The position numbers were made by a program, and so were the translations under genes. A stretch of DNA of 64,000 nt from positions 36,135,361-36,199,360 of the forward strand of contig OX031064.1 in assembly GCA_943736015.1 (NCBI GenBank). Reading direction: 5' to 3'. Shown piece by piece: positions 3,901-25,603 of this stretch. The notes under the pieces were generated by a model. That model worked only from the letters and a program-made list of their open reading frames with translations, did no database searches and had not been told where the DNA came from. This DNA is from Tridacna crocea. Its lineage: Eukaryota > Mollusca > Bivalvia > Cardiida > Cardiidae. How positions within the stretch are numbered: position 1 is the first letter of the stretch; each line of letters starts with the position of its first letter.

Positions 3901-6900
3901 TATAGCATTTGACATGTCAGTAAATTGGTAGCTTTTGCAGATGTTTCTTGCTCATATTGAAAACATTTGCAGAATTTAAGCTAAATTTGACCCAAATTGA
4001 ATTTATTTTTGGAGACATTGATAGAAAAAAGGCAAGTACTAATTATTACTACTACTACTATTTTTTCGGATACTATCCATCCCTTATCATTTGTATATTC
4101 ATAAGTACATGTTGGTAAGATTTATAGCTTAATACACTGTTGAACTCTTTACCACACAATCCCGACTATTAACCACCCTGATAAAGAAGCCTTTTGAAAA
4201 CATTGTGGGAAAAGGAGAAAATGCTGGTAACCAGCATTTTCTCCTTTTCCCACAAAGTTTTCTACCCTATCAAAGGAAAATTGAGTCATTTAAGCCACTA
4301 TGAAACTGTTGTCTGTAAATGATTTCATTTAGGTTAAGTCTAACATTTTGCCGTGTGGTAAAGGGTTAACTCTTTACCAAATGACAAAATTTTAGACTGG
4401 TCCAAGTTGAAAGCACTTGCAGTCAGAAATAAAGACAAAACTCAAAAATTGAAATTCGTTTCCAGCAGGTTAGAAAACATTGTGGGAAAAGGAGAAAATG
4501 CTGATTACCAGCATTTTCTCCTTTTCCCACAATGTTTTTTAAAAAGGTCTCTATTTCAGAATTATAAAAACCAGAGGTTGTTTGGTAAAGGGTTAACTCT
4601 ACTGCTGCTAAGTGGGACTCTAAGCTTTTATGAACAGTGTGAAAGAAGATCAGACTGTAAAGTCCAGTATGAAGACATGTTGTTTTTTTTTTTCAAATAT
4701 AACAATATTGCATCGTTTTAGTTTTGAGTAATTAATAGAAATGTTCACATATTGATCAGTTTTACTCTTTATCAGTGAAAACATTTTTTGAAAATTCCAG
4801 AATGAAAGACAGTATTTATAGACAGTTTGTCATAAGTAAGGTAATTGAATAATATGCATTTTTGAAGGTTAAAATTCTAGTTATGAACATTTTCTTTTTT
4901 CCCCATATAGTTTTCAAATGCATCCTTTGTCAGGGTTATTTAAGCATGACAGGGGTGTGGAATTCCTATGCCCAACTTGCCAGACTTGGGACTTTTTGGC
5001 TGCGGACAAGTGAATTTTTCCAGAGCACTTGTCCACGGGCAAGTGAATTTTTGAGCCAAACCAGATGAGGAAATGTCATATTTACATCAATGGCGATCCT
5101 CAAATGCTCCATTTATTCCAAGTTTTGCATTACCAGTGTTGAAATAAACACCGGTGTGAGGCCTCTCGCTACATGCAGTTGGTGTGGGGAAAAAAGGACA
5201 AGTAAACTTTAAATGCGGACAAGTAGGAAATTCAGTCCAACTTGTCAGTGAGCAAGTGGGAAAATTCCAAAATTGCGCACCCCTGCATGAGATTTTTTGG
5301 GATAAAGGGTTAACAAGGTGTTTGACATTCCAGAGCACACTACCCTGGTACAAAAAGTTCGGACAATGCTGTGAAAACGGGAAAATCTCTTTGGTCCTCT
5401 GAAGATTATAGCACATTTAATGATAATGTTGGGGCTGGTTGCTGGGCAAGGGTAAGTTAATGTACCCATTTTTTTACTAGATATTTCAAACTCCATTATA
5501 TTGTCAAACTTAAGGTATCTAAAGTTGACATTATTGAGTTTTGACGCCATATCTTCGGAATTTGAAGACTACATTGTAGCAAATGGAGACCTTTCATTGA
5601 ACTCCAATCACAAGGTATCAAAGGTGGTCTCTTCAAGAAACAGAAAATAACAATAAAACGTATGTTAAGTCACCGTCTTTTCATGTACATGTAGCATACA
5701 ATGTTTAACTCTTTACGAAATGACAAAATTTTAGACTGGTCCATTTTGAAGCATTTGCAGGCGACAAAATAAAAGTGACTGAAAATTTGAAATTTCATTT
5801 GGAAAGGGAAGAAAACATTGTGGGAAAAGGAGAAAATTTTGGTTTACCAGCATTTTCTCCTTTTTCCTCAATGTTTTCCAAAAGGATTCTTTCTCATGGT
5901 TGTTAAAAGTTGGGATTGTGTGGTAAAGAGTTAACTTTATAATTGATGACCAAACATTGCTGATCTAATGAAAGAGACAAAAATGGGAGACAATTGTTTT
6001 AATAACCCTGAAGAAGACGACTTTCGAAAACATTGTTGGAAAAGTAGAAAATGCCACAAATGAGCATTTTTTTCCTTTTCCCACAGTGTTTTGTACCTTC
6101 CCATGGGCTATCACTAAATTTTAGCCACATATAGTGGTTGTCTGCAAACAATTTGAAAATTGGACAAGTATGTGATTGTTTTGTTTGGTACAGGCTTTAA
6201 AGAAAAACTTCAAAAAAGAAAATGCTACTTAATCCTTTACCACACAATGACTACTTTTGACGACCTTGAGGAAGAGGCCTTTTGAAAACTTTGTGGGAAA
6301 AGGAGAAAATGCTGGTAACCAGCATTTTGTCCTTTTCCCACAAAATTTACTACTCTATCAAAAAAAATTGCATCATTTGAGCCACTTTGAAATTATCACC
6401 TACAAATGCTCTCCATTTCGATAGGTCTAAAATTCTGCTATGTGGTAAAGGGTTAACAAAAATTTCACATTTTCCTACAACATTTTCTTCCCTTTCTAAG
6501 TCAAATCTGATAATTGTACAATTTAGTTTGTAATCTAAATGTTGGATTTTATAAATTACAGATTTAAAAAAAAAATTTAAAGGAGGAGTGCACTCTAAAT
6601 CTTTAACTCTTTACCACACAACAAAATATTGAACTAAATTAAAACTATTTGCAGACAACAAAATAAATGTGAATCAAAGGGCAGAAAACATTGTGGTAAA
6701 AGGAGAAAATGCAGGTTACCAGCATTTTCTCCTTTTTCCACAATGTTTTCAAAGGCTCTCTTTCTCAGGGTCGTTAAAAGTCAGGATTGTGTGGTAAAGA
6801 GTTAATATTGGACAAAATTCTTAATTGTATGGAAAATTGTTTTCATTAGAACCACTGTAATGTCGCAAAAAACTGCACTGAGTTCATTTACAATCTCTTT

Positions 6901-12900: not shown

Positions 12901-15900
12901 GATGTCCTCGCTTTTTTTTCAAGGTTTAAAAGATCAATACCATAACCACTGAGCTAAAGAGATATCTCCCCAATACAGTTGTTACGTATTGCATATAGAA
13001 TCGGGACAAAGCCATGTATGAAGGAGTGATCTCCTGTAACATTTATTTTGCTTTTGTTCAATGAAGTTTTATCATGCCCCAAACAACCCTGTTATGAGAA
13101 TGCCTTTGCTTAACCCATTACCACACAATCCTTACTTTTGACGCCCCTGAAAAAGAAGCCTTTAGAAAACATTGTGGAAAAAGGAGAAAATGCTGGTAAC
13201 CAGCATTTTCTCCTTTTCCCCCAATGTTTTCTACCCTTCACAAAACAAATTTCAAATTTTCAGTTACTTTTATTTTGTCATCTGCAAACGCTTTCACTTT
13301 GGACAAGCCTAAATTTTGTCGTTTGGTAATGAGTCAAATGTGATCTAACATTCAAATACATGTAAATCAAAACAGTGAATCAGCTCTTGTTATTTTCAGA
13401 TGAGCCTCTGCTCTGTTTTCAGAGAAAATTTGGTCAGATTCGATTAACTCATTACCATACGACAAAACTTTAGGCTTGCCCAATTCGGAAGCATTTGCAG
13501 ACGACAATAAAAGTTACTGAAAATTTGAAAGTTGTTTTGTGAAGGGTAGAAAACATTGTGGGAAAAGGAGAAAATGCTGTTTACCAGCATTTTCTCCTTT
13601 TCCCACAATGTTTTCCAAAGGCTTCTTTATCAGGGTCATCAAAAGTAGGGATTGTGTGGTAATGGGTTAACCAAACAAACCCTTGTTTTTATGACCCTGA
13701 GATAGCAGCCTTTGATACGTCACTGATATGGAAAATTCAGGGCAAGCATACTTGAAAAATTAAGAAATTCAGATTTGCACACATTGTAAATTTCAGGCAC
13801 AACTGTTTAAGCTGAATGTATGGTACAGTAAACTTGGCTTTGATGGTGCAGATACAATACTTATGAAGAACTTGAGTTCAGTTCCGGTGTGTACTTATGT
13901 GTTATTTTATCCTTGCAAGCCTAATGTTTGTAATGGGTGTACTAGAGTCATTCTGTTTTGACTGTCTCCTGTCCATTTGTCTTTCTGTTGTCTGCCCATC
14001 TGTCTGTCTGTCCATCTGTATGTCTCTTAACCTTCTCTTAGAGTTGTTTCCTAAACTCCTCTTTCAATTTTACTGACATCAAATTTAACTTTTAAATACT
14101 ATTTACCAGTAAAGATAGATATTTATGGCAATAACAATGGAATAAAATCTGTGACATTTCAGAGTTGCATTCTCTAGTGACTTGCATTTATGCAACTTAA
14201 CAGCTCTCCGGCATAATATTTTGCACTGGTTTAGAAATACAGTTTATTTCATCAGCTTGTTGTTAATATGGGGAAATATTTGCCAAAAAAGGGAAAGGTA
14301 TGCAAAAATAATGAGTGCCATAAGGCAATGAGTGCCATAAGGCACAAATTATTTTCGCGGATCTTTCCCTCTTGAGGTAAATATTTCCCCATATTAACCA
14401 CAAGCTTATGAAATAAATTATATATTGTATTTCCTCTGATTATTTTGTCAATGAATGCCACTTTTAACACTTTTTGCAGTAGAACAAAAAAGTAGTTCCA
14501 GATTTTCGGTAGGAGGAAAATATTCACTGTGACAGGGAAATAATTCCCCCCAAGCTTAAATTACTACATTTTTCTACCCATAACATTTCTGGAAATAGAC
14601 ACATGAAATATAATATGAATGTCTTTGATTTGATGTATTAAAAGTGATAAAGGTAAGTGCACCAGCCGTAGAGGTATGACTAAAATGGTGTTGAAATGCC
14701 ATTAACCCATTACCACACAATCCCTACTTTTGACGCCCCTGAGAAAGAAGCCTTTAGAAAGCATTGTGGGAAAAGGAGAAAATGCTGGTAACCAGCATTT
14801 TCTCCTTTTCCCACAATGTTTTCTACCTTTCACAAAACAAATTTCAAATTTTGAGTTACTTTTATTTTGTCGTCTGCAAATGCTTTCAATTTGGACCAGT
14901 CTAAAATATTGTCGTTTGGTAATGGGTTATACATCAAAATTCTTAGACAAACGTAACTCAAGGATAGATACACACATGACTGTAATTACACATTTATCTC
15001 GACAATATAAATGGCTGGCTAGTTGTAGTATTGAGAATAGGACTAATATGTTGAGATATGAATATGGCTACTGATGAGGGTGCAAAAAAATTCAATTTTC
15101 AACAAGTTTCTATAACCATGTCCAGACAAAATTGTCGATTTTCCTTCTTGGATGCATGTAGGTTATTAAAGGGGCTGTCACACTGAGCCTGGGAGTAGAT
15201 GAAGTATATACACTTACAACACTGGAAGGTTTTTCCAAGGCCAACAGCCCTCAGATACCAGATGAGAAACCTTTTACTTTACCGTACACAGATAATTTTG
15301 AAAGTAAGTGGGAATATACACCAGTCCGTACTATATAATTATGTATCAGTATATTTTTTATGAAAAAATGACTTTTTACTTTCCTAACTATTATATGTGT
15401 ATTAGTTTGAAAGAAAAAAAAAAGTGATTAAGAACAAAATCCATTGATGAATGGTTACTTGCATTTTTTTCACCCTTAACCAAACAAATTTTGTTTTTAT
15501 GACCCTGAGATAGCAGTCTTTTAACCCATTACCACACAATCCCTACTTTTGACGCCCCTGAGAAAGAAGCCTTTTGAAAACACTGTAGGAAAAGGACAAA
15601 ATGCTGGTAACCAGCATTTTCTCCTTTTCCCACAGTGTTTTCTACCCTTCCCAGAACAAATTTCAATTTTTCAGTCACCTGTCTTTTGTCGTCTGCAAAT
15701 GCTTTCAATTTGGACCAGTCTAAAATTTTCTCATGTGGTAAAGAGTTAATTGAAAAGGTTACAGATATACCTCAGTCTGAAATTTACTTAAAAATTGCTG
15801 TTGGTCCATAAAAAGACTCTTTTGAAAAGATAGCTCTATAACTAGTTTACTGCTAAGTGAAAGTTTTGCCTTTTTGCATACAGTATATATCAAGATCAGA

Positions 15901-18900
15901 CTGCAGAAAACATGCAGTCTGATCTTTGATCTCTCATCACTGGGATCTTTACAACTGGCTTGAAATATTCATTTTACACTTAACCACACAATTCTGAGTT
16001 TTAACAACACTGGAAAATTAAGATTGTAAAAACATTATTGGAAAAGGAGGAATGCTAGAAACCAGCACTTTTCCTTTTTCAACAACTTGTGTGCCTCATC
16101 AGATACACATGTCATCATTCAAGCCACATCTAATTTGTTGTCTGCAAACACTTGTAGTCTGTACAAATCAGTAAAATTTTGTCATTGTGTAAAGAGCTAC
16201 TTGTCTGCAGCCAAAAGTTCATGCACCCCGGTAGTTTTAGAGCCCTGATCCATGAACAAACCTTTTATGACAAGGTATTGTTCTATACAAGTGGCCAGCT
16301 TGGCTCAGTATTTTGTTGGTTTGTTTTCCTATTCCCATGTTTACAAATTGTTATAGTATGTTTTGGGTACAGGGAACACAAGTAGCTTTTTTATTGTGTA
16401 CCGAACTATTTTGATGATCTGGGTCTGCATTCACCAACCATTCTCCAGAACATTCTTCGTCTTACTCTTCAAGATTGTCTGACTGTGAAAGTAACAGAAC
16501 TTCTAATTGGCTGATTGGGTTCAGCCAATCAGAAGTTCTGTTTCTTTCACTTGGACTAAATTCTGAAGAATAAGACTAAGAATATTCTTTAGAATGGTTG
16601 GTGAATATGGACCCTGGTCTTTGGACGACCTTGACAAAGAAGGCTTATGCAAACATTGTGAAGAAAGGAAAAAATATGCTGGTTCCTCTCTTTCAAAGAC
16701 AGTTTCTGTTTTTGAAGCATATTCAGTTTTTTGTCTGTATTTGCTTTCAATTTAACTTTTTACCACACAATCCTGACTTGTAACGACCCTGACATAGAAG
16801 CCTTTTGAAAACATTTTGGGAAAAAGAGAAAATGCTGGTAACCAGCATTTTCTCCTTTTCCCACAATGTTTTCTATACTTCCCAAATCAAATTCAATTTT
16901 TCAGTCCAGTCACATTTATTTTGTCGTCTGCAAATGCTTTCAATTTGTGCAAGACTTCAATTTTGTCGTTTGGTAGAGAGTTAAACAAGTCTAAAATTTT
17001 GCCCTCAAGATATATAAGGAGGTTAATATTGACAACACTTTCAATTTGGGCAAGGCTAAATTTCTTTGTCTGGTAAAGAATTCATTATTTACAACAGAGT
17101 ACAAGGAGCACGAAGAGCCATTCAATTTGGCTCAACAGACTGGTGCATATGAGGTAATACATACAAGCACAACCCATGGTAATATCATACGGCAAATGGT
17201 GCTCGAATATCCTTGTGCATGGTGTGATGCAGAGAAAGTTCAAAGTTCTCTGAATATAATCGGCAATTCTAGCTGGTATGTTTATTGCAGGGTTGTGAAT
17301 GTACAGAATACTGTTTCTGATCAATTGGATAACCTATGTTTCATGTACATTTTGTTTGTGTACAAAATACTGTTTCTGATCAATTGGATAACCTATGTTT
17401 CATGTACATTTTGTTTGTGTAGGGGAAGGGAAAAAAACATGTTGTATTAAGGAAACTATGGACCTCACCTCCTTCAGATAACCTTTTACTGCATGACAAA
17501 ATAATACATCTGTAAAAAATGAAAGCATTTGAAGATGACTTTTTCAACATGGCCCATAGGAAATGATAGTTCCTTGATTGGATAGAAAACATTGTGGGAA
17601 AAGGGAAAGTGGTTGTGTAGAAATGAAACAAGTTTTTATGATGTTTCTGAATTCAAATTGACTAAAATGTGTGTACATGAAGGAAAGGTTCAAATTACTT
17701 AGCAGCTAAAATGTAGAAGTTTCAAAACTTTGTCTGGCCAAAGACTCTTTTCTTCATCAGAGTCAAAACAGCTGTTTTATAATTGGGTCCTGATCAACTC
17801 CTTTAACCCTTTCCCAAACAGTCCCTGGTTTTTACAGATCTAGAATAGTAGCCTTTTGAAAACATTGTGAGAAAAGGAGAAAATGCTGGTAACCAGCATT
17901 ATCTCCTTTTCCCGCAATGTTTTCTACCCTATTATAGACAGAAATCATCTTTTCAGCAAGAGTTGAATTGTCGTCTGCAAATGCTTTCAATTTGGTCTAG
18001 TCCAAAAGTTTGTTGTTTGGGAAAGGTTTAATTGTCCGAGAATGAGGTTTTGGTTTTGTGGCTGGCTTTATCTAGGGATTTTCTGTGGGTTTCCTCATTT
18101 TTCATGCTTAACCAAGCTTACCTCTTAGGTAGAAAGTCTGATCTTGGTCTATAAACACCTACAAAGCATATTTACTTGCCTTTACATTTCATTTGTTGAT
18201 AATTCATTTTGACCAGATTCATCTAAAAAGCAGAACAGTACTGTTCTTTATATGCCTCTTTTTTCACATGGAATTGGATTCCTCTCACAATTTAGACTGG
18301 TTTATTTGAAAAAAAAAAGGGTGATGTTGGAGATAACTGAGTAATTTTCATAAAATAGGTTGCACAAATCAAATTTGTCCAGTCTGCCTAATCAGTGGTA
18401 TCTGAAAGTTAAAATTGTTTGTAGCATCATTCTTTTATTTCAGGAATTATGATAAAATTTCTTTGATCAGTTAACACTTTACCAAACAACAAAACTTTAC
18501 TCTGGTCCAAATTGAAAGCACATGCAGACAACAAAATAAATGTGACTGAAAAATTGAAATTTGGTTAGGAAAGGGTAGAAAACATGGTGGGAAAACACCA
18601 TGGTGGTAAGGGTAGAAAACATGGTGGGAAAAGGAGAAAATGCTGGTTACCAGCATTTTCTCCTTTTCCCACATTGTTTTCAAACGGCTTCTTCCTCAGG
18701 GTTGTAAAAAGGCATCATTGTGTGGTAAAGGCTTAATAGATTATGTTCAGTATATTCACACCAGTATTAAAATTGCCATCTCACAGTGGGAAGAGAGAAT
18801 TTTTTCCATCCTCAAAGTATGAATCTTAGTTCTGATATTAACTCTTTACCAAACAATAAAATTTTGGACTGGTCCAAATTAGAAGGATTTGCAGACAAAA

Positions 18901-21900
18901 ATTTAAAGATAACTCAAATGGCAGAACTTGTCCTGGATAGTGTTACCAGCATGTTCTACATTTCCCACAGTTTTCTCTCCAATGGTCATTAAAACGGGAG
19001 ATTGTGTGGAAACCCCCCCCCCCCCCCAAATAATTTTTAAAATCATAGTAACTAGAATATGAGTTTTGAGCGCAATGCAACAACCGCGCAAAAAATCTCG
19101 GTATTTCGAAGTTAGCCCCCCCCAGTCTTGAAATGCTGCCTACGTGGCTGTGTGGTAAAGAGATAATCTTTTTTACCCCATTTGGGATTATCACAGAACA
19201 TGATGAAATTAGCGACATTTTCTGTCATTGTTTAGAAATCTTTTATGAAAAATACTGACAAATGATGGGGGATTATGTAAAGCAGGTTCAACAGGTGGAC
19301 ACCATGTATTATATTGGTTGGTGTTTGTAGAAATTCAAGTGCCTTTGGAAGAAATAAAGACTGTGTAAAAGGGTTTCTCTCATAATTTTTGTCGGTTGAA
19401 TTTTATGTGCATGGATGTCAAATAAGATGAAAAAATTCTCTGCAAAGTAAAGCAACAAGTTTTTCAGCTAAACAAGGTTTTAAAGCTAATCTTTTGCACC
19501 ATGTATTTGACATAGTAACCTGTCTCATCCATTTGTCTGTCTGCTAAAAGAAAAAAAAGTGAAACTCTTTCCTCCATTGTACAGAAAAATTTGACTTGCT
19601 TTCTATGTATGCCATCACTGTACTGCAGCATAACTGCAGATTGGCCACTGAAGGGTAAAATTTACCATATTCTTCATATTAATTTAACCCTTTACCAAAA
19701 GACAAAATTTTAGACTGGTCCAAATTGAAAGCACTTGCAGTCGACAAAATTTGTAAATCAAAATTGAAATTTGTTTCCAGCAAGGTTGAAAATACTGTGG
19801 GAATAGGAGAAAATGAAGATCAGGCCAAACTCAATGGAGCCTGATCTTGATCTTCACTGCCTGATAGTGTCTTGATCATGCCAGCTAAAACAAATTTGAA
19901 TTAGCTGTGTTTAAACTATATTACCTTATCAAAAAATATCTGACACTAATTCTTCACATTCCAGGTAGTATTAAAATTAACATATTTATAAATAGGACAC
20001 AGTGCTTGTCTACTCGAAAAATTCACAAATCAGTGAGGAAAGAATTTCTTTAACACAAAATAAATATGTTAACCCAGTCTATGCTTTCTAATCCCATCCC
20101 ATAATGCTGCCTGTTTTCTTGACCAATCAGGAGTGATTCCCACAATGTTTTGTGTTTTTTGTTTTCTTCAGGCTATGCAATCTTCAAGGAACCCTATAAT
20201 TTCTCCCCACAAGTTGGGACCTTTGAAGTCCAGTCCACCACTGACCCTGAACATAAACAAGTCCTTAGACAGATGGTGATCGAAAACCCCATTTTTTGGT
20301 GCCTTTTTATTGACCTTGTTTTCCCTATGGGGCTCCTTGGAGATTTTAGCTGGTAGGAGTTTTTAATTCTAAGGCTCTTTGAGGAAAATTTCATTGTTTT
20401 CTCTAATGCTTCTAGTGATTTGAATGTTTTAGTTTCTATAATGAGTGTTTAGTTTTTTAAGTTATTGCAGAGTAAGGGAGGGTTGAGTGATACATGGTTA
20501 ACCCTTTACCCCATAAGGCATTTCTGTGGTATCTCTAATTGACCCTAAATAACAGCAAGGATGATGCCGTTTCTTATATGTATATGACAACTTTTGATAG
20601 CATAGAAAACACTGTGACAAAAGGTGGAATTGCTCATCATGAGCAATTTCACCTTTTGCCACAATGTTTTCCAAAGGCTCCTACAAGCAATGCATAGAAA
20701 TGAGTGTCAATGGAGTAAAGGGTTAATGTGTAGAAAAACTGTTGGAAAGGGAGGAAATGAAATTCCAAAGGCCAACCTTTTTGGGATGTTAAACTTTCTA
20801 GCAAAATATTAACTTTGTATACCAAACAACAAAAGTTAAGCCTTAAGCAAATTCAAAGCATTTGCAGACAACAAATCAATGTAACTCAAATCATGAAATT
20901 TTCCTTTTTCAGAGGGTATAAAACATTGTTGGAAAAGGATAAAATGTTGGTAAATAGCAATTTATCCTTTCCCCACAATATTTTGAGTAGCCTGCTCCCA
21001 GAAGGTCATTAACAGTCAGGATAGTGTGGTAAAGTGTAAGGCTATTTTCAAAAAAACTTTCATTGTTTTTTCTCTGACGGTCTACGAAATCTAATGCTTC
21101 TTTTTCTGTGTAAATGTGTAAAGCTATTTCAAAAAAAAAGAATTATACATATTTTTAAAGTTAGAGAATCTTAATCCACTTCAGGCGTAATGTAATCTGT
21201 TATGCTTTTTCCTATTAGAAATATATTCAATTTTTAGTTACACTGTGGCCTTTAGTTGCAAACTATGCTATTGATCATCGGCTCGGGACAACTAAAAACC
21301 TGTATGTTTTAATTTCATTGACTGCTTTGTACTATTGGTTGTGTTATTGGCTTATTATGGTGGTGGATCTCATTTTATCATACTTCATGAGTACTGTACT
21401 GTACCAATTTAGTCAGTCCTGAATACTGTATATAATACAAGAGAGTATCCTTTTCCTGTCAATTCCACTGTGTATACAAAACCCTACTGAATGCTTGACT
21501 ACCTAAAGGAGAAAAAAGATGGAAAAAAATAAAACTGGTGCTAATGTTTGGGTAACAAAAGAAAATCGAGAGTTAATTGTGACATGTGATAAACCGCTTC
21601 TGTTGACTATTTTCTTTTTCTTTTGAAATTTTTCTCACTGTTTTCATTAGGTACTATTTGAGGTGTAACTATGTGTGTCTAGTATTTCAGTTATTCTCTG
21701 TAATATTTCTAAAGTATGAATCTAGCAGGTACCATACACAGTAGATAAATTACTGCATTAGGTTGACATATAAACATATACATATATTTCTAATGGTGTA
21801 AGTGCTTTTTGCAGTTTATAAATAGATTTTTTTTTTGCAATCTCTTCACTTCACCTATTTTTAACACTACAGACTATAAAAAGGTTGATTTTAAGTAAAT

Positions 21901-24900
21901 TTTCAAATTCTACACTTGCTGTTGGAATCTTTGATCAAAGGAATGATGAAATATTGATAGTAATTTAAATGTGTATTTCTGCGATTGACAGCCCATGATT
22001 ATTTTTCTGACATTGTTCATAGATTAATCATTAAATTGATTATTGAAAATATTTGATATAAGCTGTAAGAACTTGTTTTATAGTTGATGTACAATAAATT
22101 TATCTTAACTTTTAAATCAGGAAGGAAATGATATATCTTACTTCAACATTATGGGTTGCTTTTTGTTGCATTTCCCTACAATGTTTTCAAAAAGTTGTGT
22201 CCAAGACGAGCATGAAAACCTGAGCAGTCTAAAAATAACATTTTTAGTTATCCATTAGTTTTTATAGAAATAATATGCATTTTATTTTATGGAAGATGTT
22301 GTAAAAGTAGAGCATATTGGATGCATGAGCATATAGATATTTAGAGACAGTCCTGCATGGCTCAGTGGTTATGATGTAGGTCCACTAATTGCCAGGTCCT
22401 AGGTTTGATCCTCACTCAAGGAATGTCCGTTCTTGTGAGGGATAGTCTTTAGGCAATGAGCTTTAGAGCACCAGGGGCAGTTAACATGAAACTCAGGAAA
22501 TACATTTGAGCCAGTTCTGTGAAAAAGGGGCTTAATGCATCTGCAAACAGAATGAAGGTTACCAGGGCAGCTATTGGTCAATTTTCTGCATGTCAGGGGA
22601 CCAGTCTATCTCGGGATTTATTTGGTCATTAGACGAAATATATTTTATGGATCTGTAACAATATGGTGACTTGCTGGGTACTATGCTTCAAGGAGATGCA
22701 TTAAATCTCATTTTGCCAAAGCATGGCTCATATTAAAGTAGGAAACTGTCCCGTGATGTCAGGTAGGCCTTGACAAATGTTCCTACATCAATAAAATACC
22801 ACTGCGCAAAGTAAATAGAAATAACTCCAAAATCTATGTATTTCATCTCCGAAATTTTTCAGGACAGATATATATGCTGAGATTGAGACAAGAGTTGGGA
22901 CAATAAACGCTACTTCAGGGGTATTTGTGGCTTCAAGAGTCAACAAAGGTGGATGTTCATCCTTTGCTGCTGAAGGAATTTATTTCTTTCTTTTTCCCAA
23001 AGACGGTTACATTGAAGTGACAGGGGATTTAGGTAAGATTTGGCTATTTTTAGCTCACCTTAGTTCAAAGTGGGCATTTTGACCAAACTGGGTCTATTGT
23101 CTGTTGTCTGTCATCCAGGAGCCAACAGTTACTGTCTGCATTCAAGAGGCCACATACAGTCTAAAACTTGGAAGGTTTGTCGTAGTAATAATTTAATTCT
23201 TTACCAAACAACAAAATTTTCAACTGGCCCAAAGTGAAAGCATTTGTAAATGACAAAATAAAGGTGACTGAAAATCTGAAATTTGTTTTGGGAATGTAAG
23301 AAAACATTGTGGGAAAAGGAGAAAATGCTGGTTACCAGCATTTTCTCCTTTTCCCACAATGTTTTCTGAAGGCTTCTTTCTTGGGGTCGTTAAAAGTTGA
23401 GACTGTGTGGAATGGCAAAGAGTTAAACAAGTTAGAAATAGGGTCATGTCGGGTCCAAAAGTAGGGAACCAGGTCAATTTTATAAAAGAAAAACCTTGTG
23501 TACTCTATCGAGGCCACATTTTAGTCTGATACCCACAAAGCTTGGTGAGAATATTTGTCTTGATAATATTCGTACAGCATCACCTGGGTCATAGCTTATG
23601 TCAAATCAAAAAGTAGGGCATTAGGTCAAATCTTTGAAAAACCTTGTGCACTTTGGTGGCCACATTTTCAATCTGATACTCACAAAACTTGGTCAGAATG
23701 TTTGTCTTCTTACAAGTTTGAAAATGGATCATATCAGGTCAATAATTAAATGAGCCATGTTCTGTGAAAAGGGGGCTTAATGCGTGAAAAGTACAGGGTG
23801 TTTCATAATATATGTCCCCATTCTAAACCATTATGGTTTCTCCAAAACTTAATACACAACTAAAGCGAATACGTATCTGCATAGCAGACAAAAACAAATT
23901 TTATATTGATTTATGATTTGTATTAGTATCTTTGAAAGTGTCAATCCTGCCTCGCATTAAGTTGTGTGTTAAGTTTTGATGAAACCATAATGGTTTAGAA
24001 AGGGGACAGATATTATGAAACACCCTGTATCTACCCAGGTCAGTCTGCGCAGGCTGACTTGTTTGTCAAAGTACCAATTTTCCTCATGATTAAGTCAGTT
24101 ATTGAAAAGAGTGGTTGTTATGGATCCTCTATTATGTTATGACTTGGGTTAGTTTAATGTATAACAGAGATGGACCCCATGTGGTTTAATCGGGGGTATA
24201 AGAATAAACCACTGCAGTCCCGTGATCGTCACATCTGCTATTTCATATAGCAGAACAAACATGACAGCATGCATGTCGTAAAAGGCAACAAAAGGGGCAT
24301 CATTTTGTGTTTTGTCCATTCCTCATTTATTATGTTTGTCTTATGTTGTTGCACACATATGTTATTTTCACCTCGCATTATTGTTTACTAAGTAAGTGAG
24401 CCCAATATGACCTAAGTTGTCGACGGGCCTTAAAACGCTTTTCATTCATTATAACAGAGATGCATTGTGAGCCCCTTTTTGCCAGAGCATGGGTCATACT
24501 TAGTAAAACTCTGAAGAGAAAAAGATAATTGTCATTTTTTTCTTTCCTTTATCAGCAAGAACACAACAATTGACAAAATTATCAGTAACTGTCACTCCAG
24601 ATGGATGGAATAAACTGGGACTCCTGTTGAAGGTGAGGGCTGCACTTCTCTGTCAAATAATTCAGTATAGATGAATGGACTGGTTATCATGTGACTGTGA
24701 AATACTATAATACTCTACCACGTTTTTTCCAGACTATGTACTATGTATATTTTTGTCTGATAAACAGGCTTTTTGAGGAAATTGATGAAGGAATTTTTGG
24801 TAAATTCGGAACAATTTTTCTACATTTCATAATATTTTCAATACAGTCCTTCTGCCTTGATTCAGAACGTGCTTTCACATCATAAATATTTATCTTATTC

Positions 24901-25603
24901 TTTAAAAAACCTTAACCGTTACAGCACTGGAACCAAATTAACTTATTTTTGTGGACAGCGTAGATCAAGATCAGACTGCACAGAATGTGCAGTCTGATCT
25001 TGGATCTTCACTGTCCACTATTTTGTTTCATATTCTGTCCAAGGAAACCTTTGCACAGTAATATTTCAGATGTTTTTCCTATCTAAAAATGTGTCTTGTA
25101 TTAATTCAGCACTTTAAGGGTTAAAAACATTTTGGAGAATGCAGAAAATGCTGACAAATAACATTTTCTCATTTTCTCACAGACAAATTCCATCATTTCG
25201 GTCACATTTTCAGTTTGAAGTAATGGGAAATTTTGTTCTCTAATAACAAGCGACACAATATGTATGCAATAATGGTAATGTATTCCTCTTTTTGTTTTAG
25301 AATGGCTATGCATCAGGGATGCTAAACAACCAACAAGTGTTTAACATTAGCCTGCCGGATAGAACTCCAAAGTCTGGATTTGTAGCCCTTGGTACCTCAG
25401 AGTATGGATTAGCTGATTTTGACAATCTAAAAATAGCAACAAGTGCAGAAGGAGAACTTCTTTTTAATCAAATTAGAGAACCAAATGTGGAACATAGTGA
25501 TACTTATACGATAAATGAAAAGGCAGACAAAAAGCTCTTAGTTGATAGTGATACATTATATTTCAAACCTTTTGGTCAGAAAGAGGAAAAGAATAGTGAA
25601 TAG
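751..25603 (+). CDS. GALC: Galactocerebrosidase (GALC) gene, all exons but the 5' ones
   Basis: GALC is a lysosomal GH59 hydrolase that removes galactose from galactosylceramide and psychosine. Fifteen exons are placed here: 751-915, 2891-2929, 3269-3399, 5334-5451, 6910-6947, 8342-8466, 9792-9931, 11827-11916, 13797-13886, 15162-15303, then 17098-17275 or 20172-20352, then 22863-23032, 24556-24632 and 25301-25603. Phases match at every junction and give about 601 codons. The translation follows vertebrate GALC without large gaps from the strand before the catalytic acid/base Glu (WNER) through the nucleophile Glu (LWSSED), the PWSGHY block, and the C-terminal beta and lectin-like domains. 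The signal peptide and the first part of the barrel lie upstream of the window. Odd points are the duplicated exon and a C-terminal tail of about 57 residues beyond the usual end (FDNF/L...). Identification rests on recognised motifs; no search was run. Confidence 0.95.
1155..1210. repeat. Fragment of CGCAGGCT-type hairpin repeat
   Basis: AAAAAGTGTCAACCCAGGTC...GCCTGCGCATCCGCACAG resembles the inner hairpin of the element at 7968-8237. It is a short relic only. Confidence 0.4.
1607..1779. mobile_element. Small MITE with CAGAGCTCC termini (copy 1)
   Basis: Begins CAGAGCTCCAGATAGAGG and ends with the near inverse CCGTTTTATCAGGAGCTCTG, so terminal inverted repeats of about 25 bp enclose 173 bp. 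A second copy is at 40543-40734. Confidence 0.7.
1841..2069 (+). mobile_element. TTAAhp MITE, A, +
   Basis: Hairpin complete with centre GGTTTCC instead of GGTNACC. Left TTAA decayed to TTGT, right TTAA at 2066-2069. Confidence 0.85.
2581..2808 (-). mobile_element. TTAAhp MITE, A, -
   Basis: Full length. Left TTAA changed to TTAG, right TTAA at 2805-2808, 82 bp before the GALC exon at 2891. Confidence 0.9.
2891..2929 (+). CDS. GALC: GALC 39-bp exon with catalytic acid/base Glu
   Basis: Acceptor TTTACAG, donor GTAATA. Encodes [13 protein letters not shown]. The Glu of WNE (codon 2900-2902) corresponds to the GH59 proton donor. Phase 0 on both sides. Confidence 0.94.
3269..3399 (+). CDS. GALC: GALC exon LLRKKLDK...DAVYAIG
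   Basis: Acceptor TTTATAG, donor GTAACA. Encodes [18 protein letters not shown] then [20 protein letters not shown], the GALC segment ILRKMLN...DNLWESIS. Leaves in phase 2 (GG of Gly). Confidence 0.94.
3486..3661 (-). mobile_element. TTAAhp MITE, -, decayed
   Basis: Both hairpin arms recognisable (AAAACATAGTGGAAAAATGG and CCTTTTCCCACAATGTTTTC). The centre is GGTTGTC and the ends have drifted. Confidence 0.6.
3665..3892 (+). mobile_element. TTAAhp MITE, A, +
   Basis: TTAACCTTTTACCAAACAAT start, hairpin with centre GGTGACC, decayed right end GGGGTGAA. Confidence 0.8.
4141..4369 (+). mobile_element. TTAAhp MITE, A, +; shares right TTAA with next copy
   Basis: Full length. Its right TTAA at 4366-4369 is also the left TTAA of the oppositely oriented copy that follows. 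Confidence 0.9.
4366..4596 (-). mobile_element. TTAAhp MITE, A, -
   Basis: Abuts the previous copy through a single TTAA. Hairpin centre ATGCTGATTACCAGCAT has one arm mismatch. Right TTAA at 4593-4596 runs into a CTACTGCTGCTAAG relic like the end of the 10228 element. Confidence 0.9.
4866..5313 (-). mobile_element. TTAAhp MITE, -, decayed, split by a younger insertion
   Basis: The right half reads CCATATAGTTTTCAAATGCA then CAGGGTTATTTAAGCATGA up to 4949 and resumes at 5286 to GGGATAAAGGGTTAA at 5313. Removing 4950-5285 and one CATGA copy restores the family order. It ends 20 bp before a GALC exon. Confidence 0.6.
4950..5285. mobile_element. hAT-like non-autonomous element nested in a MITE
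   Basis: Begins CAGGGGTGTGGAATTCC and ends with the inverse GGAAAATTCCAAAATTGCGCACCCCTG in looser form. Flanked by direct repeats CATGA at 4945-4949 and 5286-5290. CAGGGGTG termini are typical of hAT elements, though a 5-bp duplication is short for hAT (usually 8). No transposase ORF. Confidence 0.65.
5334..5451 (+). CDS. GALC: GALC exon with catalytic nucleophile Glu
   Basis: Acceptor GACATTCCAG, donor GTAAGT. Encodes [20 protein letters not shown] then [19 protein letters not shown]. The Glu of LWSSED (5401-5403) is the GH59 nucleophile position. Enters in phase 2, leaves in phase 0. Confidence 0.95.
5705..5934 (-). mobile_element. TTAAhp MITE, A, -
   Basis: Both TTAA ends present. Hairpin arm drifted (GAAAATTTTGGTTTACCAGC). 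Confidence 0.88.
5999..6200 (+). mobile_element. TTAAhp MITE, +, decayed
   Basis: Starts within the AACCCTGAAGAAGA block. Hairpin centre is lost (GCCACAAATGAGC) but the arms remain; right end GGCTTTAA. Confidence 0.65.
6229..6456 (+). mobile_element. TTAAhp MITE, A, +
   Basis: Full copy with both TTAA ends. One arm has a T for C (CATTTTGTCC). Confidence 0.9.
6603..6805 (-). mobile_element. TTAAhp MITE, A, -, short internal deletion
   Basis: Both TTAA ends. About 25 bp shorter than typical in the segment before the hairpin. Lies 104 bp before a GALC exon. Confidence 0.88.
6910..6947 (+). CDS. GALC: GALC 38-bp exon [12 protein letters not shown]
   Basis: Acceptor ATTTGCAG, donor GTAAAT. Matches the conserved ILNQNYINGYMT of GALC. 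Phase 0 in, phase 2 out. Confidence 0.93.
7398..7626 (+). mobile_element. TTAAhp MITE, A, +
   Basis: Ends TTAAACCCATACC and GTTAAGAGTTAA. Right hairpin arm changed to CATTTGGCCTTTTCCCACC. Confidence 0.8.
7695..7920 (-). mobile_element. TTAAhp MITE, -, decayed
   Basis: Left end TTTACTCTACCACAC, right end AAAAGGTTAA. Hairpin eroded to AAGGAAACACTAGTTACCAG. Confidence 0.7.
7968..8237. mobile_element. MITE with ~48-bp inverted ends and two internal hairpins
   Basis: TATATGG...CATCACGCGAAAAGGGGC then ATTCGGACATTTGCGTAAA at the left is repeated inverted at the right end. Between the ends lie two further hairpins, 8017-8073 and 8133-8191, each with a GGATCAGCCTG.../...CAGGCTNATCCGAGACG stem, giving a cross-shaped foldback of 270 bp. 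Fragments of the inner stem occur at 1155, 24030 and 56108. Confidence 0.85.
8342..8466 (+). CDS. GALC: GALC exon with PWSGHY block
   Basis: Acceptor TTGGTAG, donor GTGAGG. Encodes [20 protein letters not shown] then [20 protein letters not shown]. This stretch is among the most conserved in GALC. Phase 2 in, phase 1 out. Confidence 0.95.
8497..9022. mobile_element. DNA transposon relic with ~70-bp inverted ends
   Basis: Left CATCTTCGCAAGCCAAGGAT then ACTAAGGTAGCACCCTTGG is matched inverted by the end TATCCTTGGCTCGCGAAGATGG. Flanking GTTACTTC (8489-8496) and GTTAGTTC (9023-9030) look like an 8-bp target duplication with one mismatch. The 526-bp body has no recognisable transposase. Confidence 0.75.
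9075..9302 (+). mobile_element. TTAAhp MITE, A, +
   Basis: Full copy, ends TTAACCCATTACC and GGTAATGGGTTAA. Outer left arm has ACACTG against CAATGT on the right. Confidence 0.93.
9344..9572 (+). mobile_element. TTAAhp MITE, subfamily B, +
   Basis: Ends TTAACCCTTTACTCC and GGGGTAAAGGGTTAA. Perfect long hairpin with GTGACAAAAGGTGAAATTGC arms around CTCGTGACGAG. Flanks differ from subfamily A outside the hairpin. Confidence 0.92.
9590..9720 (+). mobile_element. tRNA-like SINE fragment
   Basis: ATGGTTGCAAGGTAGAGCG followed by GTTCCAAGTTCGATAACG is tRNA-like, then GGGTGTCAACTTCTGGAT and CACACATTCGGCATGAG, which recur at 30238-30295. Confidence 0.5.
9792..9931 (+). CDS. GALC: GALC exon [14 protein letters not shown]...IETM
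   Basis: Acceptor TATATCAG, donor GTAAGT. Encodes [18 protein letters not shown] then [18 protein letters not shown], matching GALC SAHTTQFTQPGWYYL...LEKGGSYVAL. Phase 1 in, phase 0 out. Confidence 0.95.
9984..10060 (-). mobile_element. TTAAhp MITE fragment, right end only
   Basis: CTTTTCCCACAATATCAAC then GGGATTGTGTGGTAGAGGGTTGA. The left half is missing. Confidence 0.6.
10228..10440. mobile_element. Second TTAA-bounded MITE family (GATCAGACTGCA hairpin)
   Basis: Ends TTAACCCTTTCGCTGC and GCAGGATAAGGGTTAA. Internal hairpin ATCAAGATCAGACTGCAT / ATGTGCAGTCTGATCTTGGAT. Related copies at 15846-15985 and 24912-25124; fragment at 19816-19880. Confidence 0.8.
10753..11679 (-). mobile_element. Element with 156-bp tandem core (Helentron/pearl-like)
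   Basis: Starts with the hairpin CCCGTCGAAGACGGG, carries five tandem units with starts at 10825, 10981, 11137, 11293 and 11449 (each exactly 156 bp), and ends near GACGGGCGTATC and GCCGCTCTTGTT. GCCCGTC and GACGGGC form subterminal inverted repeats. This layout (stem-loop, subterminal repeats, central tandem repeats) is that of bivalve pearl elements and Helentron-associated INEs, here read on the - strand. No ORF. Confidence 0.75.
11827..11916 (+). CDS. GALC: GALC exon [17 protein letters not shown]
   Basis: Acceptor CATTTCAG, donor GTAAGT. Matches the GALC block SHKHSKCIRPFLPYFNVS. Phase 0 both sides, 30 codons. Confidence 0.94.
11950..12097 (-). mobile_element. tRNA-derived SINE, unit 0 of a tandem series
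   Basis: On the - strand it reads TTTGGCTCAGTGCTTACGG then GGGTTCAAATCCC, an A-box and B-box like pair. It is cut at GTATTTAA by the MITE at 12098 and continues after it. Confidence 0.6.
12098..12325 (-). mobile_element. TTAAhp MITE, subfamily C, -, inserted in a SINE unit
   Basis: Hairpin centre TTGCTCGTTACGAGCAA with A-type arms. The outer arms ACACTG / CAGTGT are matched to each other. Left TTAA at 12098-12101; right site is TGAA. The neighbouring SINE unit shows the empty site GTATTTAAATTGGG at 12650-12663. Confidence 0.88.
12326..12664 (-). mobile_element. tRNA-derived SINE unit 1
   Basis: Repeats the unit of about 335-345 bp, with CATGAAGG, AACAAATGGGATTAATGG, AGGATTTGAACCCATG (B-box on -) and CACTGAGCTAAAGA (A-box on -). 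Confidence 0.65.
12665..13045 (-). mobile_element. tRNA-derived SINE unit 2
   Basis: Third repetition of the same block in direct order, ending at the start of a fourth (CATGTATGAAGGAGTGATC). Confidence 0.65.
13110..13337 (+). mobile_element. TTAAhp MITE, A, +
   Basis: TTAACCCATTACC start, right end GAGTCAA. Arms GTGGAAAAAGG / CCTTTTCCCCC each changed. Confidence 0.9.
13444..13670 (-). mobile_element. TTAAhp MITE, A, -
   Basis: Both TTAA ends. Centre GCTGTTTACCAGC. The right TTAA is followed by CCAAACAAACCCTTG, the start of a truncated + copy. Confidence 0.9.
13797..13886 (+). CDS. GALC: GALC exon [10 protein letters not shown]
   Basis: Acceptor AAATTTCAG, donor GTGTGT. Encodes [20 protein letters not shown] then [10 protein letters not shown], matching GALC [20 protein letters not shown]. 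Phase 0 both sides. Confidence 0.9.
14243..14417. mobile_element. Foldback element, ~42-bp arms
   Basis: TTTATTTCATCAGCTTG and TTAATATGGGGAAATATTTG pair with the inverted right arm ending CTTATGAAATAAA. The loop has a direct 17-bp duplication of ATGAGTGCCATAAGGCA. Confidence 0.75.
14702..14930 (+). mobile_element. TTAAhp MITE, A, +
   Basis: Perfect hairpin, left TTAA, right end GGTAATGGGTTAT. Confidence 0.93.
15162..15303 (+). CDS. GALC: GALC exon [15 protein letters not shown]...DNFE
   Basis: Acceptor ATGTAG, donor GTAAGT. Encodes [20 protein letters not shown] and later [11 protein letters not shown], matching GALC FTLSLHEDELFTLTTLT...PFPSTYKDDF. Leaves in phase 1, as required by both alternative next exons. 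Confidence 0.93.
15521..15749 (+). mobile_element. TTAAhp MITE, A, +, inserted beside a truncated copy
   Basis: Full copy. The 15474-15520 flank is the first 45 bp of another + copy (CCCTTAACCAAACAAATTTT). Outer arms ACACTG / CAGTGT match each other. Confidence 0.92.
15846..15985. mobile_element. Relic of the GATCAGACTGCA-hairpin MITE
   Basis: TTTACTGCTAAG then ATCAAGATCAGACTGCAG / ATGCAGTCTGATCTTTGAT. The right terminus is not clear. Confidence 0.6.
15978..16197 (+). mobile_element. TTAAhp MITE, +, decayed
   Basis: CTTAACCACACAATTCTGAG start; eroded hairpin GGAGGAATGCTAGAAACCAG; right end TTGTGTAAAGAGC. Confidence 0.65.
16431..16614. mobile_element. Foldback MITE with ~85-bp arms
   Basis: GGGTCTGCATTCACCAACCA at the left is matched inverted by TGGTTGGTGAATATGGACCC at the right, and inner AACAGAACTTCTAATTGGCT is matched by AGCCAATCAGAAGTTCTGTT. 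Nearly the whole 184 bp pairs. Confidence 0.85.
16612..16751 (+). mobile_element. TTAAhp MITE fragment, +, decayed
   Basis: GACGACCTTGACAAAGAAGG then AACATTGTGAAGAAAGG and TTTGTCTGTATTTGCTTTC. Truncated on both sides by neighbours. Confidence 0.55.
16752..16984 (+). mobile_element. TTAAhp MITE, A, +
   Basis: Both TTAA ends. A relic right end (CAATTTGGGCAAGGCTAAAT) follows at 17041-17085, just before the alternative GALC exon at 17098. Confidence 0.9.
17098..17275 (+). CDS. GALC: GALC alternative exon A
   Basis: Acceptor TTACAACAG, donor GTATGT. Encodes [19 protein letters not shown], later [14 protein letters not shown] and [10 protein letters not shown]. Aligned with GALC YPFFSEAPNFADQTGVFEY...TLRQVLNQRPITWA...SIIGDYNW. 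Enters in phase 1 and leaves in phase 2 (AGC TG), like exon B at 20172. This copy keeps the hydrophilic tail before SLNIIG more like the vertebrate protein. Confidence 0.92.
17302..17419 (+). repeat. Tandem duplication, 2 x 59 bp, beside exon A donor
   Basis: TACAGAATACTGTTTCTGAT at 17302 and TACAAAATACTGTTTCTGAT at 17361 begin two almost identical 59-bp units, 26 bp downstream of the exon A donor. Confidence 0.9.
17480..17612 (-). mobile_element. TTAAhp MITE fragment, -
   Basis: Left half only: TTTTACTGCATGACAAAAT, GGCCCATAGG, GATAGAAAACATTGTGGG, then lost in the hairpin. Confidence 0.6.
17803..18031 (+). mobile_element. TTAAhp MITE, A hairpin with CCCAAAC ends, +
   Basis: TTAACCCTTTCCCAAACAGT start, GTTTGGGAAAGGTTTAA end. 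Near-identical relative at 43228-43456, down to TATTATAGACAGAAATCATC. Confidence 0.92.
18471..18736 (-). mobile_element. TTAAhp MITE, A, -, with internal duplication
   Basis: Both TTAA ends. GGGTAGAAAACATGGTGGG occurs twice (from about 18574 and 18609), which lengthens the left arm. Confidence 0.88.
18838..19011 (-). mobile_element. TTAAhp MITE, -, left hairpin arm deleted
   Basis: TTAACTCTTTACCAAACAAT start; only GTGTTACCAGCATG and the right arm remain; ends at a C run where the termini are lost. Confidence 0.75.
19012..19027. repeat. Poly-C run
   Basis: About 15 consecutive C at a MITE boundary. A further C run lies near 19117. Confidence 0.9.
19684..19815 (-). mobile_element. TTAAhp MITE, -, truncated
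   Basis: Left half to GGGAATAGGAGAAAATGA, then joined at 19816 to a GATCAGGCCAAACTC piece of the other TTAA MITE family. Confidence 0.75.
20172..20352 (+). CDS. GALC: GALC alternative exon B
   Basis: Acceptor TTTTCTTCAG, donor GTAGGA. Encodes [19 protein letters not shown], later [13 protein letters not shown], then a hydrophobic [17 protein letters not shown]. It aligns with exon A and the same GALC segment, with the same phases. Open throughout, 181 bp against 178. The hydrophobic stretch before GDFSW differs from exon A and from the vertebrate protein. Confidence 0.9.
20498..20726 (-). mobile_element. TTAAhp MITE, subfamily B, -
   Basis: Both TTAA ends. Centre GCTCATCATGAGC, so one arm pair changed together compared with the B copy at 9344. 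Confidence 0.92.
20809..21039 (-). mobile_element. TTAAhp MITE, -, decayed
   Basis: TTAACTTTGTATACCAAACA start, hairpin GGATAAAATGTTGGTAAAT, right end GTGGTAAAGTGTAA. Confidence 0.75.
21040..22339. other. GALC intron, no recognised feature
   Basis: AT-rich intron between alternative exon B and the exon at 22863. I see only short homopolymers and a possible MITE remnant near 22150-22200 (CCCTACAATGTTTTC). Any element controlling the A/B choice could lie here. Confidence 0.5.
22340..22640 (+). mobile_element. tRNA-derived SINE, +
   Basis: CATGGCTCAGTGGTTATG (A-box like) and CCTAGGTTTGATCCTC (B-box like) 40 bp apart, with a non-tRNA body. No poly-A tail seen. Confidence 0.6.
22863..23032 (+). 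CDS. GALC: GALC exon [12 protein letters not shown]...VASRVNKGG
   Basis: Acceptor TTTTTCAG, donor GTAAGA. Encodes [49 protein letters not shown], matching GALC TNLTIKCDVYIETP...VFIAGRVNKGG...GSYRVTGDL. Phase 2 in, phase 1 out. Confidence 0.95.
23053..23745 (-). mobile_element. Repeat of ACTTGGTCAGAAT type, interrupted by a MITE
   Basis: TAGCTCACCTTAG start, then diverged tandem blocks such as CACATTTT...TCTGATACCCACAAAGCTTGGTGAGAATATTTGTCT. Split at 23193-23426 by a TTAAhp copy. The same blocks appear at 61277-61850. Confidence 0.55.
23193..23426 (-). mobile_element. TTAAhp MITE, A, -, nested
   Basis: Both TTAA ends, perfect hairpin, inserted in the repeat above. GAATGGCAAAGAG carries a 5-bp insertion near the right end. 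Confidence 0.92.
23792..24029. mobile_element. mariner-like MITE, ~75-bp inverted ends
   Basis: TACAGGGTGTTTCATAATAT at the left is mirrored by ATATTATGAAACACCCTGTA at the right, with AAACCATTATGGTTT inside each arm. TA at both borders fits Tc1/mariner target choice. 238 bp, non-coding. Confidence 0.85.
24556..24632 (+). CDS. GALC: GALC exon [18 protein letters not shown]
   Basis: Acceptor TTTATCAG, donor GTGAGG. Matches GALC [20 protein letters not shown] in position and pattern. Phase 1 in, phase 0 out. Confidence 0.88.
24912..25124. mobile_element. Second-family TTAA MITE (GATCAGACTGCA hairpin)
   Basis: Ends TTAACCGTTACAGCAC and GCACTTTAAGGGTTAA, hairpin ATCAAGATCAGACTGCAC / GTGCAGTCTGATCTTGGAT. 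213 bp, the same length as the copy at 10228. Confidence 0.82.
25121..25245 (+). mobile_element. TTAAhp MITE fragment, decayed
   Basis: AACATTTTGGAGAATGCAG and CATTTTCTCATTTTCTCACA arms remain. Shares TTAA 25121-25124 with the preceding element. Confidence 0.55.
25301..25603 (+). CDS. GALC: GALC last coding exon with C-terminal extension
   Basis: Acceptor TTTGTTTTAG. Encodes [39 protein letters not shown], matching GALC TSGMLNDKSLW...GWAAIGTHSFEFAQFDNF. About 57 residues follow the usual end, hydrophilic and rich in Asp, Glu and Lys. Stop TAG at 25601-25603. Confidence 0.95.
   Translation, partial: NGYASGMLNNQQVFNISLPDRTPKSGFVALGTSEYGLADFDNLKIATSAEGELLFNQIREPNVEHSDTYTINEKADKKLLVDSDTLYFKPFGQKEEKNSE

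Follow-up and report, generated by a model that had tools for sequence, protein, structure and literature searches.

The stretch analysed here, 64,000 nucleotides of Tridacna crocea contig OX031064.1 (C9:36135361-36199360; hereafter the window), belongs to an assembly of 1.05 Gb in 31 contigs. It carries a GALC gene of glycoside hydrolase family GH59 in which one coding exon is present in two copies, designated exon A and exon B. The gene begins upstream of the window and lies on the forward strand. Its model comprises 17 coding exons per isoform, running from about C9:36132098 to a stop codon at positions 25601-25603 of the window, and probably lacks an N-terminal exon. Three of the modelled exons precede the window. 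Within it, exons at 751-915 and 3269-3399 encode parts of the TIM barrel, a small exon at 2891-2929 carries the motif VWNER, and an exon at 5334-5451 carries LWSSEDYS. The duplicated exon is bracketed by two constitutive exons, at 15162-15303 (leaving in phase 1) and at 22863-23032 (entering in phase 2), and is followed by the penultimate coding exon at 24556-24632 and by the last, with the stop codon, at 25301-25603. Either isoform forms one open frame down to that stop; all internal junctions are AG/GT and the exon phases chain without a break.

The identity of the host gene is supported along its length. The GH59 catalytic domain, PF02057, matches exons of this gene, and 622 of the 676 residues of the isoform with exon B align with mouse GALC, where they span chain positions 36-651 of 654 (E 2.6e-191); the whole-isoform alignment was made with B, and A was compared as a segment of three exons. 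The glutamates of WNER and WSSED correspond to chain positions 168 and 244 of the mouse structure and thus, by adding 14, to E182 and E258, the acid/base and the nucleophile of GALC, respectively (PMC4445328). The lectin domain PF21708 is recognised in the three-exon segments of the isoforms with 95.1 and 98 bits, against a cut-off of 27. In its architecture, in both catalytic glutamates and in the pocket tryptophan discussed below, the gene resembles mouse GALC (PDB 4CCC, 3ZR5). Exons A and B therefore belong to an otherwise intact GALC gene, with a predicted galactosylceramidase activity.

Exon A (17098-17275, 178 nucleotides, donor GTATGT) and exon B (20172-20352, 181 nucleotides, donor GTAGGA) are both preceded by AG and followed by GT; each has entry phase 1 and exit phase 2, with no stop in that frame. 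An earlier note on this DNA had proposed that they encode the same segment of GALC, which is borne out: the two peptides are identical at 20 of 58 aligned positions (34%), and their three-exon segments align to one and the same stretch of mouse GALC, with 85.7 bits for A and 99.8 bits for B. This likeness is far beyond chance. Choosing either exon alone keeps the frame open. Translation of the joined sequence shows that inclusion of both leads to a premature TAA at 20197-20199, and skipping of both to a premature TAA at 22904-22906, so that, as the note had also held, a full-length protein needs exactly one of them. Its exon coordinates, splice sites, phases, stop positions and quoted peptides were likewise recovered from the sequence. 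The premature stops lie 403 nucleotides (both included) and 206 nucleotides (both skipped) upstream of the last exon junction, and for this reason nonsense-mediated decay would be expected to clear both wrong forms.

The further claim, that the phases of the two exons force their mutually exclusive use, does not follow. Two more GALC genes, here called P1 and P2, lie on the same chromosome, at about 33.34 Mb on the forward and about 35.31 Mb on the reverse strand. Each has a single copy of the exon, of 178 nucleotides in P1 and 172 nucleotides in P2, and both copies run from phase 1 to phase 2. Since the single-copy exons already share this phase class and a length that is not a multiple of three, any tandem copy would have the property that exactly one must be chosen. 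Phase constrains the product, not the splicing; it was inherited, and the frame incompatibility of A and B is no evidence that exclusivity was selected. Phase was accordingly set aside as proof of exclusive splicing.

Genome searches with exon A (five matches) and exon B (four matches) recovered A, B and a single exon in each of P1 and P2, giving four copies in the genome. The only extra match, obtained with A, was insignificant (E 9.47) and contains a stop. An unfiltered profile search that covered 52 kb at the window gene, 40 kb at each of P1 and P2 and the remaining 32 kb of the window found no fifth or relic copy, the next best hit having an E value of 2.2, and in particular no third copy between A and B. 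At the DNA level, a search of the genome with exon B matched exon B alone.

On C9, all three GALC paralogs fall inside 3 Mb (33.33-33.36, 35.30-35.32 and 36.13-36.16 Mb), in the orientations +, - and +. In the P1 region a GH59 match at C9:33342000-33342161 reads across two TAG codons, and at about C9:33355833-33356084 the homologs of the exons at 24556-24632 and 25301-25603 appear as one open stretch, which suggests loss or gain of an intron. Weaker GH59 catalytic matches outside the three genes (C2:73923441-73923698, C2:73954767-73955024 and C4:11828268-11828888; E 3.6e-6 to 3.9e-5) possibly belong to other glycosidases. The searches with A and B gave no significant match at these C2 and C4 sites.

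The exchanged segment had been described as lying next to the lectin-like domain; PF21708 in fact begins inside it, so that the segment opens the domain. By count along the mouse chain, with the same offset that places both catalytic glutamates, the tryptophan in the AWC of exon A and the FWC of exon B is mouse W524, a residue that shapes the substrate (galactose) pocket of GALC (PMC4445328). The tryptophan and the cysteine after it are kept in all four copies of this genome, and the next exon reads GGC in all three genes. Mouse GALC, in contrast, has WA and GGI at the two places. Given the extra cysteine in each of the two exons in this genome, the lineage might have a disulfide of its own, and WC and the GGC encoded at 22863-23032 are the candidate partners. 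The second difference from mouse GALC is the presence of two alternative segments at the opening of the lectin domain.

Up to the tryptophan, B is identical to A at 17 of 41 positions, to P1 at 21 of 41, to P2 at 19 of 41 and to mouse at 18 of 42. The two copies diverge in character beyond this residue. The tail of B is hydrophobic, with a mean Kyte-Doolittle value of 1.56, versus -0.22 for A. Near its end A has an N-glycosylation sequon, NSS, whereas B has NFSP alone, in which the proline makes glycosylation unlikely. A frameshift origin of the hydrophobic stretch was considered and dismissed, as inspection of the other two frames by eye gave no ancestral-like peptide. Saposin A (SapA) touches all three domains of GALC (PMC5764952), and an altered saposin contact through the exchange of A and B is therefore possible. 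A nearer consequence would be expected at the substrate pocket, because the exon bears W524.

All four copies of the exon are similarly distant from one another. Protein identities are 29/58 for A and P1, 25/58 for B and P1, 23/56 for B and P2, 19/56 for A and P2 and 26/56 for P1 and P2, which together with the A-B value span 34-50%. The flanking exons of the three genes show much the same range, with 18/47, 19/47 and 23/47 (38-48%) upstream and 22/56, 25/56 and 17/56 (30-44%) downstream. Five other exons compared across the three genes are 39% to 85% identical, indicating that the A/B region belongs to a fast-changing part of the protein. The mean similarity score to the other copies is 108.0 for A, 102.5 for B, 117.2 for P1 and 92.6 for P2, and in all six pairs of whole exons third codon positions are the most divergent.

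Neutral drift was simulated from P1, P2 or A (2000 runs each, with an assumed ratio of insertions and deletions, or indels, of 0.1 and an assumed base composition). A simulated exon was counted as intact if it was free of stops and indels and retained both splice dinucleotides. After 0.2 substitutions per site this held for 9, 10 and 15 of the 2000 runs (0.45%, 0.5% and 0.75%), and a similarity to the other copies as high as that of B was found in 0.25%, 0% and 0% of 400 scored runs. In a free fit of the codon model the branch leading to B amounts to 1.3-2.1 neutral substitutions per codon (0.44-0.71 per site); at simulated distances of 0.44 and 0.7, none of the 2000 runs from any start was intact. 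As B is about as similar to the other copies as A is, and as more than 99% of the runs were broken at 0.2 substitutions per site, it is unlikely that B is a relic of long standing. On these comparisons both copies look constrained.

The splice sites look ordinary. By eye, each of the six around the pair is of the GT-AG type with no sign, at that level, of a mismatch between U2 and U12 sites. Scored against CAGGTAAGT, the donor of A matches at 7 of 9 positions and that of B at 6 of 9. The acceptors differ more. The tract of A is weak, with 9 pyrimidines in 18 positions (of the 33 acceptors listed, two of them taken two bases off, one is lower and one equal), and that of B is strong, with 15 of 18. 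Regulated splicing that takes B by default would fit such a weak first and strong second acceptor.

The intron between A and B, at 2896 nucleotides, is too long for a steric block. Neither of these two hard-wired forms of exclusion is essential: in human mutually exclusive clusters, steric interference is invoked for 9% and U2/U12 mismatch for 0.79% (PMC5740500). Competing RNA pairings between introns, a possible but not obligatory mechanism, were also examined. Inverted repeats (79 pairs, 25 of them listed) flank A and B, but also 9 of a further 14 internal exons, the edges of three exons being provisional in this comparison, and so are not specific to the pair. Part of the repeat content of these introns is an abundant palindromic element with the core GAAAACATTGTGGGAAAAGGAGAAAATGCTGGTTACCAGC, which occurs in the introns of all three GALC genes and yields spurious open reading frames; examples are found at 15517-15653, 16752-16884, 18604-18740 and 23300-23367. 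Just downstream of the donor of exon A, at 17300-17421, there is also a 59-base unit repeated 2.1 times with 98% matches.

Mutually exclusive homologous exons, such as those of muscle myosin heavy chain, dynein heavy chain and Dscam, arise by tandem exon duplication, and A and B resemble them in being adjacent and of near-equal length, in sharing phases, in coding for corresponding parts of the fold and in their conserved splice sites. A common phase and conserved splice sites are among the criteria by which such exons are recognised (PMC3228551). Two human sets were used for comparison (PMC5740500 and PMC9741552). In the first, 377 clusters (60%) are of non-triplet length, so that joint inclusion breaks the frame as it does for A and B (PMC5740500); according to the second, most human homologous alternative exons belong to membrane proteins such as channels (PMC9741552). 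The clam pair differs from the known cases in being documented from DNA alone and in being found in one of three paralogs. As the earlier note had supposed, no mutually exclusive exon in GALC came to light in a literature search, which covered mainly open-access papers at the level of titles and the openings of abstracts. In the parts consulted, an account of exon structure in vertebrate GALC and ARSA describes exon gain and loss and nothing like the A/B pair (PMC12008523). This well-preserved duplicate exon is a known kind of system in an unusual gene.

We consider it probable that the exon at the start of the GALC lectin domain was duplicated in tandem long ago, giving A and B, and that both have been kept as alternative coding exons. 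Several observations weigh against this interpretation. It draws on one genome assembly, from one individual of one species, and on DNA only. The profile search of the gene regions found neither an A/B pair nor a detectable relic of one in P1 or P2. Branch tests of dN/dS did not reject an omega of 1 for B (2 delta lnL, twice the log-likelihood difference, 0.0-0.03 over three topologies) or for A (0.14-0.58), an outcome that we ascribe to saturation of the tree. The excess of third-position changes fails for A and B, and ties for B and P2, in the 15-17 codons after the tryptophan. In that tail B is identical to A at 3 of 17 positions, to P1 at 4 of 17, to P2 at 4 of 15 and to mouse at 2 of 15, a poor match which implies that constraint may have slackened in part of B, or that this part may have changed to suit a new role. 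The simulated loss of intact exons, moreover, leans on the assumed indel rate, given that stop codons alone spare 20-27% of simulated exons at 0.2 substitutions per site.

These points bear most directly on the alternative that one of the exons is unused, a recently dead relic that still looks intact. The simulations leave room for it at short distances, with 5-7% of exons intact at 0.1 and 24-26% at 0.05 substitutions per site. Either copy could be nominated: A because its acceptor is the joint second-poorest of those listed, B because of its poorly conserved tail; an omega of 1 was not rejected for either. Yet neither copy has a stop, a frameshift or a lost splice dinucleotide, and as the divergence of the copies is about that seen between the flanking exons of the paralogs, a dead copy must have been of use during most of this period and have died late. 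We regard such a relic as unlikely. Still less probable is an on/off switch, in which one isoform is the sole enzyme and transcripts with both exons or neither lower GALC output by decay. The early stops of both wrong combinations would serve such a switch, but the GALC-like protein sequence that both copies retain is not required of a poison exon. An assembly artefact that brought together two haplotypes or two genes is highly improbable: the window contains no N, no other exon of the gene is duplicated among the matches listed, and at 34% protein identity A and B are too different for alleles.

The origin of the pair is a separate matter. Gene conversion or unequal exchange with another GALC paralog might have brought B (or A) into this gene, which would be compatible with two isoforms. 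The three genes are close together on one chromosome, and the best tree joins A with P1, the tree joining A with B being worse by 3.0 log-likelihood units at the codon and 3.35 at the protein level. The latter tree is nevertheless not rejected (approximately unbiased test, p-AU 0.148), the DNA of exon B finds no other match in the genome, B is no closer to P2 than to P1, and an exon duplication that predates the gene duplications fits the trees equally well. We therefore hold acquisition from a paralog to be possible, though not the likely course of events. All trees were built on about 58 alignment columns; when unconstrained, B falls beside mouse (bootstrap 75/100), both being long branches. 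The comparisons suggest either that the pair dates from about the time of the gene duplications and that P1 and P2 each lost one copy, or that B derives from another GALC lineage.

Under the interpretation that both exons are retained as alternatives, splicing would place either A or B between the exon that ends at 15303 and the one that begins at 22863, and transcripts with both or neither would stop early and be degraded. The result would be two enzymes with a common catalytic TIM barrel that differ in about 59 residues. As these include the galactose-pocket tryptophan and the stretch right after it, the likely effect would be a change at the pocket wall, on the lipid or the saposin side. 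Splicing of both exons in vivo, a regulated choice between them and a difference in activity between the products are what we infer. A bolder version, which we offer tentatively and consider doubtful, is that the pair constitutes a splicing switch on the substrate pocket, with either a polar lectin wall bearing a glycosylation site or a hydrophobic one around W524, tuned to different galactolipids or saposins, and that the pair is as old as this animal's GALC family and should be expected in its relatives.

Elsewhere in the window, an open stretch of 317 codons on the forward strand at 50350-51303 has a sub-threshold match to the Pfam RAI16-like family (E 0.00027, 20.5 bits versus a cut-off of 24.9) and is possibly an exon of a neighbouring gene.

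If human and mouse numbering are offset by one residue, as we assume for this mapping, the Krabbe-disease changes T529M and G553R appear to fall within the A/B segment. Missense changes in this disease are known to hit the lectin domain of GALC (PMC12256330). If the two exons are indeed used as alternatives, splicing could change glycolipid turnover in this clam by exchanging part of the wall that lines the pocket of a lysosomal lipid hydrolase, and the two isoforms would provide a natural pair of GALC variants with which to probe the role of the lectin domain.

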